IMG/VR virus record: IMGVR_UViG_3300022223_000021
Location: 1 to 26,452 of that record
DNA: 26,452 nucleotides
Direction: 5' to 3' (one strand)
Source of the DNA: a virus
Shown here: piece by piece, positions 3,318 to 17,074 of the stretch
Layout: each line of letters begins with the position of its first letter
Numbering within the stretch: the first letter of the stretch is position 1
The notes under the pieces: generated by a model
Told to the model about the DNA's origin: nothing
The model's input: only the letters and a program-made list of their open reading frames with translations
Databases searched by the model: none
Program-made: the position numbers and the translations under genes

Positions 3318-3509
3318 TCAATAGGTGAAGCCAATAAATACAATTGTAGAGCTTTTCAAGTACAGGCAGCGACTGATATCGTCGCAGTCTATGACTTCCC
3401 AACGCTTTAAAGACCTGTCAAAGCTGCCAAGCCTGTAGACTTTGACGCTGTCCGCTTTGCGTTTGATGTATTCGCCCTTGGGGGCTTTGTTGATTGCGAT
3501 TGCTTTCAT
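3318..3509 (-). CDS. Small conserved phage protein, 63 aa, unknown function
   Basis: The start at 3509 gives MKAIAINKAPKGEYIKRKAD..., with the pattern 'KGEyiKRKaDSxkVYrlGsfDRSxKrwevxDxDDIsRxlyLKsstxVFIGFTY'. I recognise this arrangement (KRK.DS..VY...DRS...DADDI.R....K...VF.GFTY) from widespread uncharacterised small phage proteins. It is compact, probably beta-rich, and has no catalytic motif. The ribosome-binding site is weak (AGGCAGC). An in-frame extension to 3593 would enter the DnaA-box region and is rejected. It is the first gene of the leftward block, next to the origin-like region. Confidence 0.7.
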   Translation of the reverse strand: MKAIAINKAPKGEYIKRKADSVKVYRLGSFDRSLKRWEVIDCDDISRCLYLKSSTIVFIGFTY

Positions 3510-3545
3510 GGTTTGCTGCCTGGTAAATACCCTGGATTGGGCAGC

Positions 3546-3578
3546 TTTATATATGCAACAATTGTGCCAGCTTGTCAG
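3546..3578 (-). promoter_or_regulatory. Possible promoter for the leftward gene block
   Basis: Read leftward, CTGACA (3578-3573) is one mismatch from the -35 consensus. It is followed by an AT-rich CATATATAAA stretch that can supply an imperfect -10 element 17-21 nt downstream. It lies upstream of the first leftward gene (start 3509), where a promoter is expected. The match is poorer than the three rightward promoters, so this is tentative. Confidence 0.3.
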
Positions 3579-3596
3579 CCTGTCACAATCCACAAG

Positions 3597-3849
3597 TTAT
3601 CCACAGGCTCTACCATTGGGCAAAGGGCTAAGTTATCCACAAATGGCACATCAAGCCTAGTTATCCACAGCAGGCACTAAAGTGGTGCAAAATGCACTAA
3701 TAGGGTGCTTCATTGCCCCATACTTGTGCAGACTGTGGATAACTTCCAAGCTCAGAAGTTATGCACAGCTTGTCCACAGCTTATGTGGATAAGTCTGTGT
3801 AGAACCTGTGGATAACCCTGTGCAGAACCTGTGGAAATCCTGTGGATAA
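3597..3849. other. DnaA-box cluster, candidate replication origin
   Basis: Seven perfect 9-mers equal to the E. coli R1 DnaA box (TTATCCACA) lie within 253 bp. Three are in plus orientation (3597-3605, 3633-3641, 3661-3669). Four are in minus orientation, TGTGGATAA (3734-3742, 3784-3792, 3807-3815, 3841-3849). One-mismatch versions occur at 3759-3767 (TTATGCACA) and 3770-3778 (TTGTCCACA), and a poorer one at 3830-3838. The two groups point toward each other around a short palindrome, GTGCA-AAA-TGCAC (3685-3697). AT-rich DNA at about 3886-4000 to the right could serve as an unwinding element. Function as an origin, or as a DnaA-titrating site, is inferred from known DnaA biology. Confidence 0.8.
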
Positions 3850-3856
3850 CTTCGCA

Positions 3857-3870
3857 GGGGGGGGGGGGGG
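3857..3870. repeat. Run of 14 G
   Basis: An uninterrupted 14-G homopolymer lies 8 bp after the last DnaA box and is followed by AGGG. It is the only such run in the window. It may be a real G-tract or an assembly or polymerase artefact at a repeat or contig junction. G-rich DNA here could also form a four-stranded structure. Confidence 0.9.
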
Positions 3871-3871
3871 A

Positions 3872-3895
3872 GGGCTGGCGAGCCCGTAATAATTT
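3872..3895 (+). terminator. Short GC hairpin followed by AT-rich DNA
   Basis: GGGCT (3872-3876), loop GGCG, AGCCC (3881-3885), then GTAATAATTTT. This could act as a weak rightward terminator between the origin-like cluster and the leader region, or be a structural element of the origin. The stem is only 5 bp and the U-tract is interrupted. Confidence 0.3.
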
Positions 3896-4125
3896 TAGCA
3901 CCCTACCAGATACAAAAAAAGCTAAAAAGACCTTCTAAACTGTAAAAAAAGAAACCCCCTATACTATATAGATTAACCAGACCTAACCCGTTGATTCTAA
4001 AGGGATAACAAAGGTAAGCAGTCGAAGTCGCTATTAGCAACTAAAGGGAAAGCACAACATCGACTGAACAGCTATGGAGCCGACCCCGACTGAACAGCTA
4101 ATTTGTAAAAAAGTGAAAAAAACAC
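3886..4125. other. AT-rich non-coding spacer between DnaA boxes and late promoter
   Basis: No convincing gene is present. The stretch contains A-runs (3917-3923 and 3944-3950 approximately) and one CTATATAG palindrome (3964-3971). It also contains a 14-bp direct repeat, CGACTGAACAGCTA, at 4061-4074 and 4087-4100. Its position beside the DnaA boxes and just upstream of the putative small-terminase gene makes it a candidate for both an unwinding element and a packaging (cos/pac) site; neither can be shown from sequence alone. Confidence 0.5.
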
Positions 4126-4154
4126 TTGACAAAATTCAAAAAGTGTGATATAAT
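4126..4154 (+). promoter_or_regulatory. Consensus sigma70 promoter P1 (packaging operon)
   Basis: A perfect -35 TTGACA (4126-4131), a 17-bp spacer and a perfect -10 TATAAT (4149-4154) with an extended TGA just upstream. The flanks and spacer match the promoters at 9328 and 16366. It drives the rightward block starting with the putative small terminase through a leader of about 150 nt. Confidence 0.92.
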
Positions 4155-4156
4155 GC

Positions 4157-4309
4157 CTATATAGGAAATGGATTTGAGGGGGTATCGAATACCTCTCATG
4201 TTCATCAGCAATATAGCTAATAAGCCTTAAAGAGGTTTCTAGTGAGCTAAGAACTATATAGTACAAAGCCCACAAGATACCTAAGTAGGGCTATATAGAG
4301 GAACCAGAA
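4157..4309 (+). promoter_or_regulatory. Long 5' leader with repeated CTATATAG palindromes
   Basis: About 150 nt separate P1 from the first start codon. The leader holds three copies of the 8-bp palindrome CTATATAG (4157-4164, 4254-4261, 4291-4298), with a fourth at 3964-3971 outside it. It also has a hairpin, GGTAT-CGA-ATACC (4181-4193). The last palindrome directly abuts the ribosome-binding site of the first gene. Repressor binding, RNA structure or a packaging signal are all possible; none is proven. Confidence 0.45.
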
Positions 4310-4687
4310 ATGGACAATCCAGCCCCACAAGCGAAAATAGGAAGACCGTCAAAAAGAGCTTTAGCAGAAGCCCGCAAGCAACCTATTGGGCGACCAAAAG
4401 GTGACGCCAGTGCTATTGAGGAATTCAAGGCTCGTATAATGAATTCCCCTAAAAGTAGGAAGGTGTTAGATGCTATCCTTGACGCTGCTCTGGATGAGAA
4501 CCACAAGAATCAGGCAGCAGCTTGGAAGTTGCTTGTGGACAGGATGCTTCCAATGTCTTATTTCGAGAAGGATAAAGCTATGGGTCATCGTCCCTCTGTT
4601 AATATTACTATCACAGGGGTTGGGGAGTCAGTCAGTATCGCAGGCTCAGATGACGTTATCGACGCAGAGGATGTATATGGCAACTAG
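4310..4687 (+). CDS. Putative small terminase subunit / DNA-packaging protein
   Basis: A 125-aa protein. The N-terminus has two AT-hook-like GRP motifs (IGRPSKR at about 10-16 and IGRPKGD at about 26-32) that suggest minor-groove DNA contact. A helical core follows, 'SPKSRKVLDAILDAALDENHKNQAAAWKLLVDRMLP', then a beta-rich acidic tail ending 'SDDVIDAEDVYGN'. The helical core resembles small terminase-like packaging proteins whose helices end in 'LLxDRxLP'. The call rests mainly on position: first gene of the operon, two genes before the large terminase. An AGAGGAAC site lies upstream of the ATG. A different DNA-binding role is possible. Confidence 0.55.
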   Translation: MDNPAPQAKIGRPSKRALAEARKQPIGRPKGDASAIEEFKARIMNSPKSRKVLDAILDAALDENHKNQAAAWKLLVDRMLPMSYFEKDKAMGHRPSVNITITGVGESVSIAGSDDVIDAEDVYGN

Positions 4688-5924: not shown

Positions 5925-6103
5925 TGATTAAATTTTATGTTCTAGTGTTTATGTTCTCAAACACACCCGACTTCAGGATGGTAACACAAATTGAAGTTCC
6001 TACTTTAGAAATGTGTGCAGAGAAGACACTAGAGATAAATGTGTCAGATGAAACTCCTTTTAACGCAGCTTGTTTTGTACAGAAATACTATAAAGATTCG
6101 TGA
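5924..6103 (+). CDS. Small ORF, 59 aa, between lysozyme and large terminase
   Basis: The ORF starts MIKFYVLVFMFSNTPDFRMV and ends FVQKYYKDS. Its ATG overlaps the lysozyme stop (TAATG) and its TGA overlaps the GTG start of the large terminase (GTGA), so all three are coupled. The first 11 residues are hydrophobic, and two cysteines occur later (CAEK, ACFV). This could be a small secreted or membrane-associated protein. There is no strong ribosome-binding site and no family I recognise. Tight overlap on both sides is the main evidence that it is real. Confidence 0.6.
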   Translation: MIKFYVLVFMFSNTPDFRMVTQIEVPTLEMCAEKTLEINVSDETPFNAACFVQKYYKDS

Positions 6104-7353
6104 GTGATTTAAAAATTGAGTTACTCCCGTGGCAACAGAAAGTCTGGAATGACCCCGCAAGGTTTCATGTCGTGGCTGCTGGGCGAAGAACGGGGAAAAG
6201 TAGACTCGCAGCATATCGACTGATTGTTGAGGCGCTACAGAGTGAGCGCGGACATGTCTTCTATGTTGCTCCTACACAGGGGCAGGCTAGGGACATTATG
6301 TGGCAAGTGTTGCTTGAGGTGGGTCACTCTGTTATCAGTGGAAGTCACATTAACAACTTGCAGATTAAACTTATTAACGGGGCAACCATATCGCTAAAGG
6401 GTGCTGACCGTCCAGAGACTATGCGAGGTGTGTCGCTAAAGTTTCTGGTGTTGGATGAGTATGCAGATATGAAGCCAGAGGTGTGGGAGCAAATCTTACG
6501 TCCCGCGCTGGCTGACTTGAAGGGTAGGGCGTTATTCATTGGTACGCCTATGGGTCGTAATCATTTTTATGACTTGTACCAATACGGGTTAAAAGGTGAG
6601 GATGTTACTTTTAAATCGTTTCACTTCTCTTCGTTTGATAACCCGCTGTTAGACCCAAAAGAGATTGAAGCTGCTAAGAAGAGTATGTCCTCTTTCAGCT
6701 TTAGGCAAGAGTTTATGGCTTCCTTTGAAGCGGCTGGTGGTGAGCTATTCAAAGAGGAGTGGATTAAGTTTGATGAGGAAGAGCCAAAAGAGGGTGACTT
6801 TTATATTGCGGTTGACCTAGCTGGCTTTGAGGATGAAGGTACAAAGGGGCTTAAAAACTCCAGGTTAGACAGTACGGCGATTGCTATTGTCAAAGCCAAT
6901 GATAAAGGCTGGTGGGTTGCAGATATCATCTATGGTCGTTGGGATGTCAAGGAGACAGCCAAGATTATATTTGATGCTGTTAAGAGGTATGAGCCGATAG
7001 CAGTCGGTATTGAGAAGGGTATTGCAAAACAGGCTGTTATGCCGTACCTGTCAGATATTATGAAGCGTACTCAAACCTTCTTTAGGGTTGAAGAGCTATC
7101 ACACGGGAATAAGAAGAAGGTAGACCGTGTAGTGTGGGCGCTCCAAGGAAGATTTGAGAACGGTTATATAAAACTTAACAAGGGTGATTGGAATAACGAA
7201 TTCTTAGACCAGTTATTTCAATTCCCCAATAAGCTAGTACATGATGACCTTCCTGACGCTTTGTCGTACATTGAGCAACTTGCAAAAGTTTCTTACACGT
7301 TCGACTACGAAGAGGAAGAGTACCAAATGTTAGACGCAACTGCGGGGTATTAA
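6100..7353 (+). CDS. Large terminase subunit (packaging ATPase-nuclease)
   Basis: A 417-aa protein that starts with GTG, overlapping the preceding stop. The ATPase domain has Walker A GRRTGKS at residues 28-34 and Walker B LVLDE at 116-120. The C-terminal RNase H-like nuclease has 'IAVDLAG' with Asp239, 'DSTAIAIVKAN', and 'DDLPDALSYIEQL' at 382-394, supplying the usual acidic residues. Length and motif order fit phage TerL. It pumps DNA into the prohead through the portal encoded 4 nt downstream, and cuts the concatemer. Confidence 0.95.
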   Translation: MSDLKIELLPWQQKVWNDPARFHVVAAGRRTGKSRLAAYRLIVEALQSERGHVFYVAPTQGQARDIMWQVLLEVGHSVISGSHINNLQIKLINGATISLKGADRPETMRGVSLKFLVLDEYADMKPEVWEQILRPALADLKGRALFIGTPMGRNHFYDLYQYGLKGEDVTFKSFHFSSFDNPLLDPKEIEAAKKSMSSFSFRQEFMASFEAAGGELFKEEWIKFDEEEPKEGDFYIAVDLAGFEDEGTKGLKNSRLDSTAIAIVKANDKGWWVADIIYGRWDVKETAKIIFDAVKRYEPIAVGIEKGIAKQAVMPYLSDIMKRTQTFFRVEELSHGNKKKVDRVVWALQGRFENGYIKLNKGDWNNEFLDQLFQFPNKLVHDDLPDALSYIEQLAKVSYTFDYEEEEYQMLDATAGY

Positions 7354-16414: not shown

Positions 16415-17074
16415 ATGCTATATATTGACCTTGTAAATGCTGTAATGCGGAGGCTGCGGGAGAGCGAAGTTAGCACTGTACAAAGTGTAAATAACGCTAA
16501 CAGCTACGCTCGTCTGATTGGTGATTTTGTTAATGAAGCTAAAAGTCAAGTTGAGGCTGCGTGGGACTGGAGTGCGCTGAGGACTACCCTTACCGCTTCT
16601 ACTCAAAATAGCGTGTTTAACTACGAACTGCAAGGGTCACGCAATAACTTTAAAGTGTTGGATGTTATCAATGATACAGATGACATTATAATGCAATACA
16701 AGGATGCTGAGTGGTTTAACAATGCTTTCTTGACATCCACACCAGCCCGTGGTTCTCCTGTTTTCTACAACTTCAACGGTGTCAGTGCAGATGGAGATAC
16801 ATTGGTAGATATCTACCCAATCCCAGATGGTGTTTACGCCCTACGTTTTAACGTCACCTTGCGTAATTTACCTCTTAGCGCAGATGCTGATACTTTGGTA
16901 ATCCCTTCCCGCCCTGTTATCCTTTTAGCAACGGCGATGGCTATTGAAGAGCGTGGTGAAGATGGTGGTCAGCAAAGCATTAACGCTTATGCCGCCGCTA
17001 AGAGTGCATTGGCAGATGAGATTTCCTTGGATGCAGCCCGTCACCCTGAAGATACTTTGTGGTATAGCGTATGA
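16415..17074 (+). CDS. Head-tail adaptor / tail-tube-like protein
   Basis: A 219-aa protein starting MLYIDLVNAVMRRLRESEV. 'LVNAVMRRLRESEVSTV...LIGDFVNEAKSQVEAAWDWSAL' is the typical opening of podovirus adaptor proteins (T7 gp11 / P22 gp4 functional class). 'VIPSRPVILLATAMAIEERGED' fits their C-terminal helices. These form the ring between portal and tail hub. The stop overlaps the start of the next gene (ATGA), consistent with their joint role in the tail. An AAAGGAAC site precedes the ATG. Confidence 0.8.
   Translation: MLYIDLVNAVMRRLRESEVSTVQSVNNANSYARLIGDFVNEAKSQVEAAWDWSALRTTLTASTQNSVFNYELQGSRNNFKVLDVINDTDDIIMQYKDAEWFNNAFLTSTPARGSPVFYNFNGVSADGDTLVDIYPIPDGVYALRFNVTLRNLPLSADADTLVIPSRPVILLATAMAIEERGEDGGQQSINAYAAAKSALADEISLDAARHPEDTLWYSV

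Follow-up and report, generated by a model that had tools for sequence, protein, structure and literature searches.

What is a dense cluster of DnaA boxes doing between the divergent arms of a phage genome? Host initiation proteins are generally considered dispensable for the replication of lytic T7-like phages. If host DnaA is recruited at such a site, the array would tie the bacterial master initiator to phage replication, to the processing of genome ends or to host shut-off. The DNA analyzed here, which we call the window, is a complete IMG/VR record of 26,452 bp; it is classed as linear, so it is probably a fragment. An earlier note, made from the letters of the window, had described the boxes and proposed that the phage either initiates replication through host DnaA or titrates it. 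We examined the array together with its counterparts in related genomes.

An array of DnaA boxes between two divergent arms

The array occupies part of an 800-bp gap (3510–4309, with p91 counted from its ATG). It lies where the earlier note had placed it, at the point of divergence between p91, which is read leftward, and the small-terminase (TerS) candidate, which is read rightward. A 253-bp stretch holds every perfect copy of TTATCCACA in the record (7/7). The positions of the 9-mer bear out the two groups described previously, three boxes on the plus strand at the left (3597, 3633 and 3661) and four in complement at the right (3734, 3784, 3807 and 3841). At least two one-mismatch copies had been noted as well, and two are found, at 3759 and 3770. 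In the whole record, 17 sites match the box with at most one mismatch, compared with 6.7 on average and at most 14 in 100 dinucleotide shuffles. The array is far above chance.

On its right side the array forms a phased ladder, in which the perfect boxes at 3784, 3807 and 3841 are interleaved with the two-mismatch boxes TTCTACACA, TTCTGCACA and ATTTCCACA at 3796, 3819 and 3830. The earlier note had missed these weak boxes, as well as the G-tract at 3857–3870 and a conserved motif at 3899–3921. It had also taken the head-to-head order of the two groups around a short palindrome for a designed structure. The layout is real in the window but is not conserved: among 129 boxes of the family, drawn from related loci and therefore not independent counts, 116 have one polarity and 13 the other. 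This rules out the convergent arrangement as a conserved design; the plus-strand group on the left, which makes the layout convergent, is peculiar to the window. Two 15-bp dyads are found among the boxes (Table 1). Dyads close to GCACYANNNTRGTGC recur among or beside the boxes of relatives (G025 at 99, 140 and 34120; G017 at 38646, 38667 and 38745; G005 at 16955), and their ligand is perhaps a phage regulator.

In the rightward arm the TerS candidate is followed by the large terminase, portal and capsid genes. The leftward genes include a GP88-family gene and an ArdC-like antirestriction candidate; the latter, at 703–1491 on the minus strand in the early arm, encodes a protein with an ArdC N-terminal domain and an M78-like peptidase region. 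The array does adjoin AT-rich DNA, as the earlier note had said; the stretch of weak DNA at 3914–3979 lies 65 bp from the boxes, beyond the G-tract. A scan for leftward promoters at the array found none, and an Rfam search for an RNA element at the array gave no match. Upstream of the TerS promoter, an exact 14-bp direct repeat, CGACTGAACAGCTA, occupies 4061–4074 and 4087–4100; it is present in the same region of the relatives L003 and G001 too.

Table 1. Features of the array and its surroundings. Positions refer to the window, except in the last row, which names loci of other phages.
Feature	Position	Strand	Remarks
p91, first leftward gene bordering the array	3318–3509	−	from ATG; ORF reaches a GTG at 3593
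DnaA-box array	3597–3849		7 perfect, 2 one-mismatch and 3 two-mismatch boxes
Perfect DnaA box TTATCCACA	3597–3605	+	sequence match
Perfect DnaA box	3633–3641	+	sequence match
Perfect DnaA box	3661–3669	+	sequence match
15-bp dyad GCACTAAAGTGGTGC	3674–3688		fits GCACYANNNTRGTGC
Palindrome GTGCAAAATGCAC	3685–3697		read directly
Second 15-bp dyad GCACTAATAGGGTGC	3694–3708		one mismatch to GCACYANNNTRGTGC
Perfect DnaA box	3734–3742	−	sequence match
DnaA box TTATGCACA	3759–3767	+	one mismatch, position 5
DnaA box TTGTCCACA	3770–3778	+	one mismatch, position 3; 11 bp past the box at 3759
Phased box ladder	3784–3849	−	boxes at 3784, 3796, 3807, 3819, 3830 and 3841; spacing 11–12 bp
G-tract, run of 14 G	3857–3870	+	7 bp past the last box; kept in relatives with and without boxes
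CACCCTACCAGATACAAAAAAAG	3899–3921	+	counterpart of CACCYTAACAGAYACAAAAAAG, a motif that relatives conserve at the right end of the genome
Weakest DNA of the window, candidate unwinding element	3914–3979		thermodynamic stability, about 0.6–1.4% percentile
Sigma-70-type promoter into TerS	4126–4154	+	12/12 consensus matches
TerS candidate, 125 aa, first rightward gene	4310–4687	+	name inferred from position
Large terminase subunit	6100–7353	+	query used to find relatives
Same-orientation arrays in T7-like isolates	L384:22–147; L318, L378, L379, L380, L381, L382		at or near termini; Berlinvirus A7, P483, nasanit and NJ2, Eapunavirus Eap1, Klebsiella phage ZK1

Host DnaA as the probable ligand

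DnaA boxes are known to vary as TTWTNCACA. In a set of 121 distinct viral arrays, single mismatches fall at positions 3 or 5 in 106 of 194 cases inside the arrays, compared with 63 of 244 outside (p ~1e-9), and mismatches at positions 2, 4 and 6–9 are depleted inside. The window's own one-mismatch boxes differ at positions 5 and 3. Boxes in viral arrays most often follow one another in the same orientation at spacings of 11 or 12 bp. In E. coli oriC, low-affinity sites are separated by gaps of 2–3 bp, as between boxes 11–12 bp apart (PMC4451416).

Scanning IMG/VR for three direct boxes with gaps of 5–35 bp returned at least 120 stretches, compared with 12 in all for the backwards 9-mer used as control. 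Among the matches listed, 44 of 118 array loci carry a terminase more than 50% identical to that of the window's family, which makes this family, among these matches, a major holder of direct box arrays in IMG/VR. A phage-encoded DnaA was looked for and rejected: no DnaA C-terminal domain was found in 20 phage records, most of them family members. Because the array is beyond chance and its variation falls at positions that DnaA tolerates, host DnaA is very probably the ligand. Recruitment of host DnaA, as the earlier note had supposed, is thus well supported at the level of sequence, by box density, mismatch tolerance, conserved position and the lack of a phage DnaA.

Conservation and optional presence of the array

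The relatives found by terminase are all uncultured, and no cultured phage with a terminase or portal above 60% identity was found. Near-complete relatives measure 36–42 kb and have two divergent arms. The early arm of one of them (G001) encodes ribonucleotide reductase, ThyX, a 5'-3' exonuclease, a gp2.5-like SSB, a family-A DNA polymerase and a T7-gp4-like primase-helicase. No T7-type RNA polymerase was found in ten family records, and neither a Rep initiator nor a DnaA homologue among the window's flanking genes or the scanned early genes of G001. We searched for integrated copies that would name the host; every match was a phage contig in a MAG bin or a distant terminase. The family consists of lytic phages with a T7-like replisome and, in the ten records examined, no T7-type RNA polymerase.

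To what extent is the array shared? The region 350–900 bp upstream of TerS in 27 non-redundant loci contains 32 perfect boxes, compared with 0.20 on average and at most 2 in shuffles. When one mismatch is allowed the count is 55, compared with 5.35 on average and at most 13. At least one perfect box is present in 14 of the loci. An equal length of the terminase gene, taken as control, contains no perfect box and one box with at most one mismatch. The box nearest the G-tract has one polarity in 26 of 26 loci and lies 4–12 bp from it in 18 of the 26; these loci, too, are related, and the counts are not independent.

The earlier note had suggested comparison with related phages and would have counted absence of the boxes from close relatives against its reading; the outcome is divided. 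Of the 54 non-redundant relatives with full coverage, 28 have boxes at this place, 23 have none, and three have one-mismatch boxes only. The closest relative, L003, whose terminase is 99% identical, is among those without boxes. Continuous similarity between the window and L003 starts at about 3908 (6530 in L003), a sharp mosaic breakpoint at most about 10 bases from the predicted genome end. On the terminase tree, box state needs at least ten changes, with 9–10 forced by well-supported branches. Such switches would also arise if terminase and terminus had recombined relative to each other.

The G-tract and the end motif remain in box-less relatives. At the place of the array, another repeat stands above all shuffles in 7 of 21 box-less loci, and in the remaining ones none does; TTTATACAAC, for example, is present in seven to eight copies in L311 and L245. 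Inspection by eye of L243 and L241 had suggested substitute repeats in every box-less relative, an idea that the shuffle test rules out. Iteron-like repeats were seen upstream of the G-tract in box-less L311, L245, L312 and L243, comprising TTTATACAAC in seven to eight copies, TACTGTATAC in five and AACACACAGTGTTTTCTATTTA in several. We found no gene present in all box-minus and in no box-plus genomes that could have replaced the boxes. The small subunit of ribonucleotide reductase was found in five of the ten records with boxes and in none of the seven without, a difference likely confounded by phylogeny. Since 23 of the 54 relatives lack boxes, box-less genomes have the same replisome as box-plus ones, and substitute repeats are limited to a third of the box-less loci, the boxes cannot be essential across the family. 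The array is an optional feature.

Box arrays at genome termini

In the sister clade, the array site is the genome terminus and the boxes lie inside a direct terminal repeat. The 36,338-bp genome G025 has an exact terminal repeat of 221 bp, which stops after ...GGT, at the junction with CACCTTAACAGACACAAAAAAG. This repeat carries seven perfect boxes, and thus there are seven at each genome end. A second cluster, of three perfect boxes and two dyads, is found in the early arm of the same genome (G025:C1:34103–34199), about 2 kb from the terminal repeat. G030, a box-less genome of 36,208 bp obtained from a different sample, ends in ...GAG, immediately before CACCTTAACAGATACAAAAAAG. Upstream, contigs of different samples share their start base, L254, L256 and L257 at CCCTAC/CCCCAC and L241 and L246 at GGCTAAAGGG. 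Judged by its contig start, L285 also has its boxes inside the terminal repeat. By analogy, the right end of the window's terminal repeat is predicted at 3898/3899. The window runs through this site, and its own clade is without equally sharp contig ends.

Several cultured T7-like phages carry comparable arrays. In Shigella phage VB_Ship_A7 (Berlinvirus), an exact terminal repeat of 177 bp (MK685668.1, 1–177 and 39882–40058) contains eight boxes in one orientation. Three to six perfect boxes are found in the homologous or terminal stretch of E. coli phages P483 and nasanit, Enterobacter phages phiEap-1 and NJ2, and Klebsiella phage ZK1; for P483, nasanit and NJ2 the matches lie inside deposited records that are possibly permuted, and "terminal" there denotes homology to A7. 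These isolates are of another lineage, the Autographiviridae, and A7 itself encodes a T7-type RNA polymerase.

A possible role in replication initiation

Our preferred reading, held tentatively, is that the array binds host DnaA and may serve as a replication-initiation module within the terminal (packaging or terminal-repeat) region of a lytic phage genome. We favor initiation because of the ladder, the fixed geometry, the weak DNA, the divergence of the arms and the lack of an alternative T7-type start. Host DnaA would occupy the perfect boxes and spread over the phased weak boxes. The resulting filament could melt AT-rich DNA nearby, for which 3914–3979 is the best candidate. The phage's T7-like primase-helicase and family-A polymerase would then enter the bubble, presumably after circularization or concatemer formation through the terminal repeats, there being no T7-type RNA polymerase on hand to open the origin by transcription. 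From there, forks would travel outward along both divergent arms.

Four observations count against initiation: the optional presence of the array, the lack of DnaA-trios, a polarity reversed with respect to R1, and the arrays of phages that have their own origin system. DnaA-trios (at least three within 16 bp on the correct side) accompany one of nine boxes, below the background of 0.26 per site, and a DnaA-trio or basal unwinding system is ruled out. The E. coli R1 unwinding element is on the TGTG side, whereas the candidate weak DNA of the window is on the opposite side. Arrays are also present in T7-like phages that supply an RNA polymerase of their own, so an array need not be the main origin. 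Cumulative GC skew, which the earlier note had put forward as a check, is equivocal. A minimum does lie near the array, 0.4–2 kb upstream of TerS in six near-full-length relatives, but the coding strand switches at the same point and two box-less relatives (G004 and G005) share the minimum. GC skew is thereby ruled out as independent proof of an origin.

Alternative roles for the boxes

The main rival of initiation is titration, which we regard as somewhat doubtful. Here the boxes would be a sink for host DnaA, halting new rounds of host chromosome replication and freeing nucleotides and replication capacity. Titration of DnaA by the chromosome is now experimentally supported in E. coli (PMC12371093). 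With many sites per phage genome, some degree of titration is expected from binding alone. A terminal repeat doubles the boxes that it contains, as in G025; the seven to nine boxes of the window would also be doubled if they lie within such a repeat, and then multiplied by copy number. The array has been switched on and off along the tree, like host-takeover traits, and T7-like phages with their own origins carry arrays too. A sink, however, needs no constant polarity, no set distance from the G-tract and no fixed terminal place. The boxes of datA are loosely spaced, unlike the direct, phased spacing of 11–12 bp seen here.

It is unlikely, though consistent with the position of the boxes, that DnaA controls the formation, duplication or packaging of genome ends and not bulk replication. 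Such a task would explain why boxes recur at the termini of an unrelated lineage, why they lie inside the terminal repeat in G025 and, by its contig start, L285, and why their geometry to the G-tract near the right end is fixed. Against it, relatives without boxes retain both the G-tract and the end motif, so that ends can be formed without boxes, and the window's own terminal repeat is a prediction by analogy. We consider it rather unlikely that, in unrelated lytic podovirus lineages, boxes inside direct terminal repeats let DnaA start local synthesis that duplicates the repeat in concatemers before packaging, acting also as the main origin where a T7-type RNA polymerase is lacking. This proposal agrees with the placing of boxes within repeats, with their fixed geometry to the end and with their being optional.

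Regulation by DnaA of divergent promoters flanking the array is quite improbable. The array does lie between divergent arms, with a perfect sigma-70-type promoter into TerS, and DnaA is a known transcription factor (PMC8203912). That promoter, however, and the nearest box are about 280 bp apart, scanning leftward gave no promoter, and in T7-like isolates the arrays occupy termini and do not separate divergent arms. Binding by another host or phage protein that recognizes TTATCCACA would accommodate the 15-bp dyads among the boxes and the putative status of DnaA as ligand, but is highly improbable, as the pattern of tolerated mismatches is DnaA's and E. coli, Shigella, Enterobacter and Klebsiella, whose DnaA uses TTATCCACA, all have phages with such arrays.

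Relation to known systems

In initiation, titration or end processing, how does the array compare with characterized DnaA-binding regions? It resembles bacterial oriC, namely the DnaA-oligomerization region of E. coli and the basal unwinding system of B. subtilis, in combining consensus and weak boxes at 11–12 bp, in one orientation, near AT-rich DNA. It differs in having no DnaA-trios and the opposite polarity relative to E. coli R1, and in belonging to a lytic phage with a T7-gp4-like helicase. Host DnaA boxes are also known in phage-plasmid origins, such as P1 oriR, and the array shares with these and with iteron-plasmid origins the presence of such boxes in phage or plasmid DNA; unlike them, it comes without a Rep initiator, signs of a plasmid state or conserved iterons. 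Similar to datA and other bacterial titrating clusters, it is dense enough to sequester DnaA, but its boxes are direct, tightly phased, of fixed polarity and placed at a phage terminus.

For lytic phages, software-predicted DnaA boxes have been reported at one origin (PMC11512268). We searched the open-access literature for DnaA-box arrays within the terminal repeats of lytic podoviruses and met with none, which does not prove that none has been described. A further likeness is to the termini of Berlinvirus A7, P483 and nasanit, Eapunavirus Eap1 and Klebsiella phage ZK1, which have same-orientation boxes at or near the genome ends, not annotated as such; these phages differ from the window's family in their Autographiviridae lineage and, in A7, in the T7-type RNA polymerase. 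The occurrence of box arrays at the termini of both an uncultured family and T7-like isolates suggests that lytic phages repeatedly recruit or trap host DnaA.
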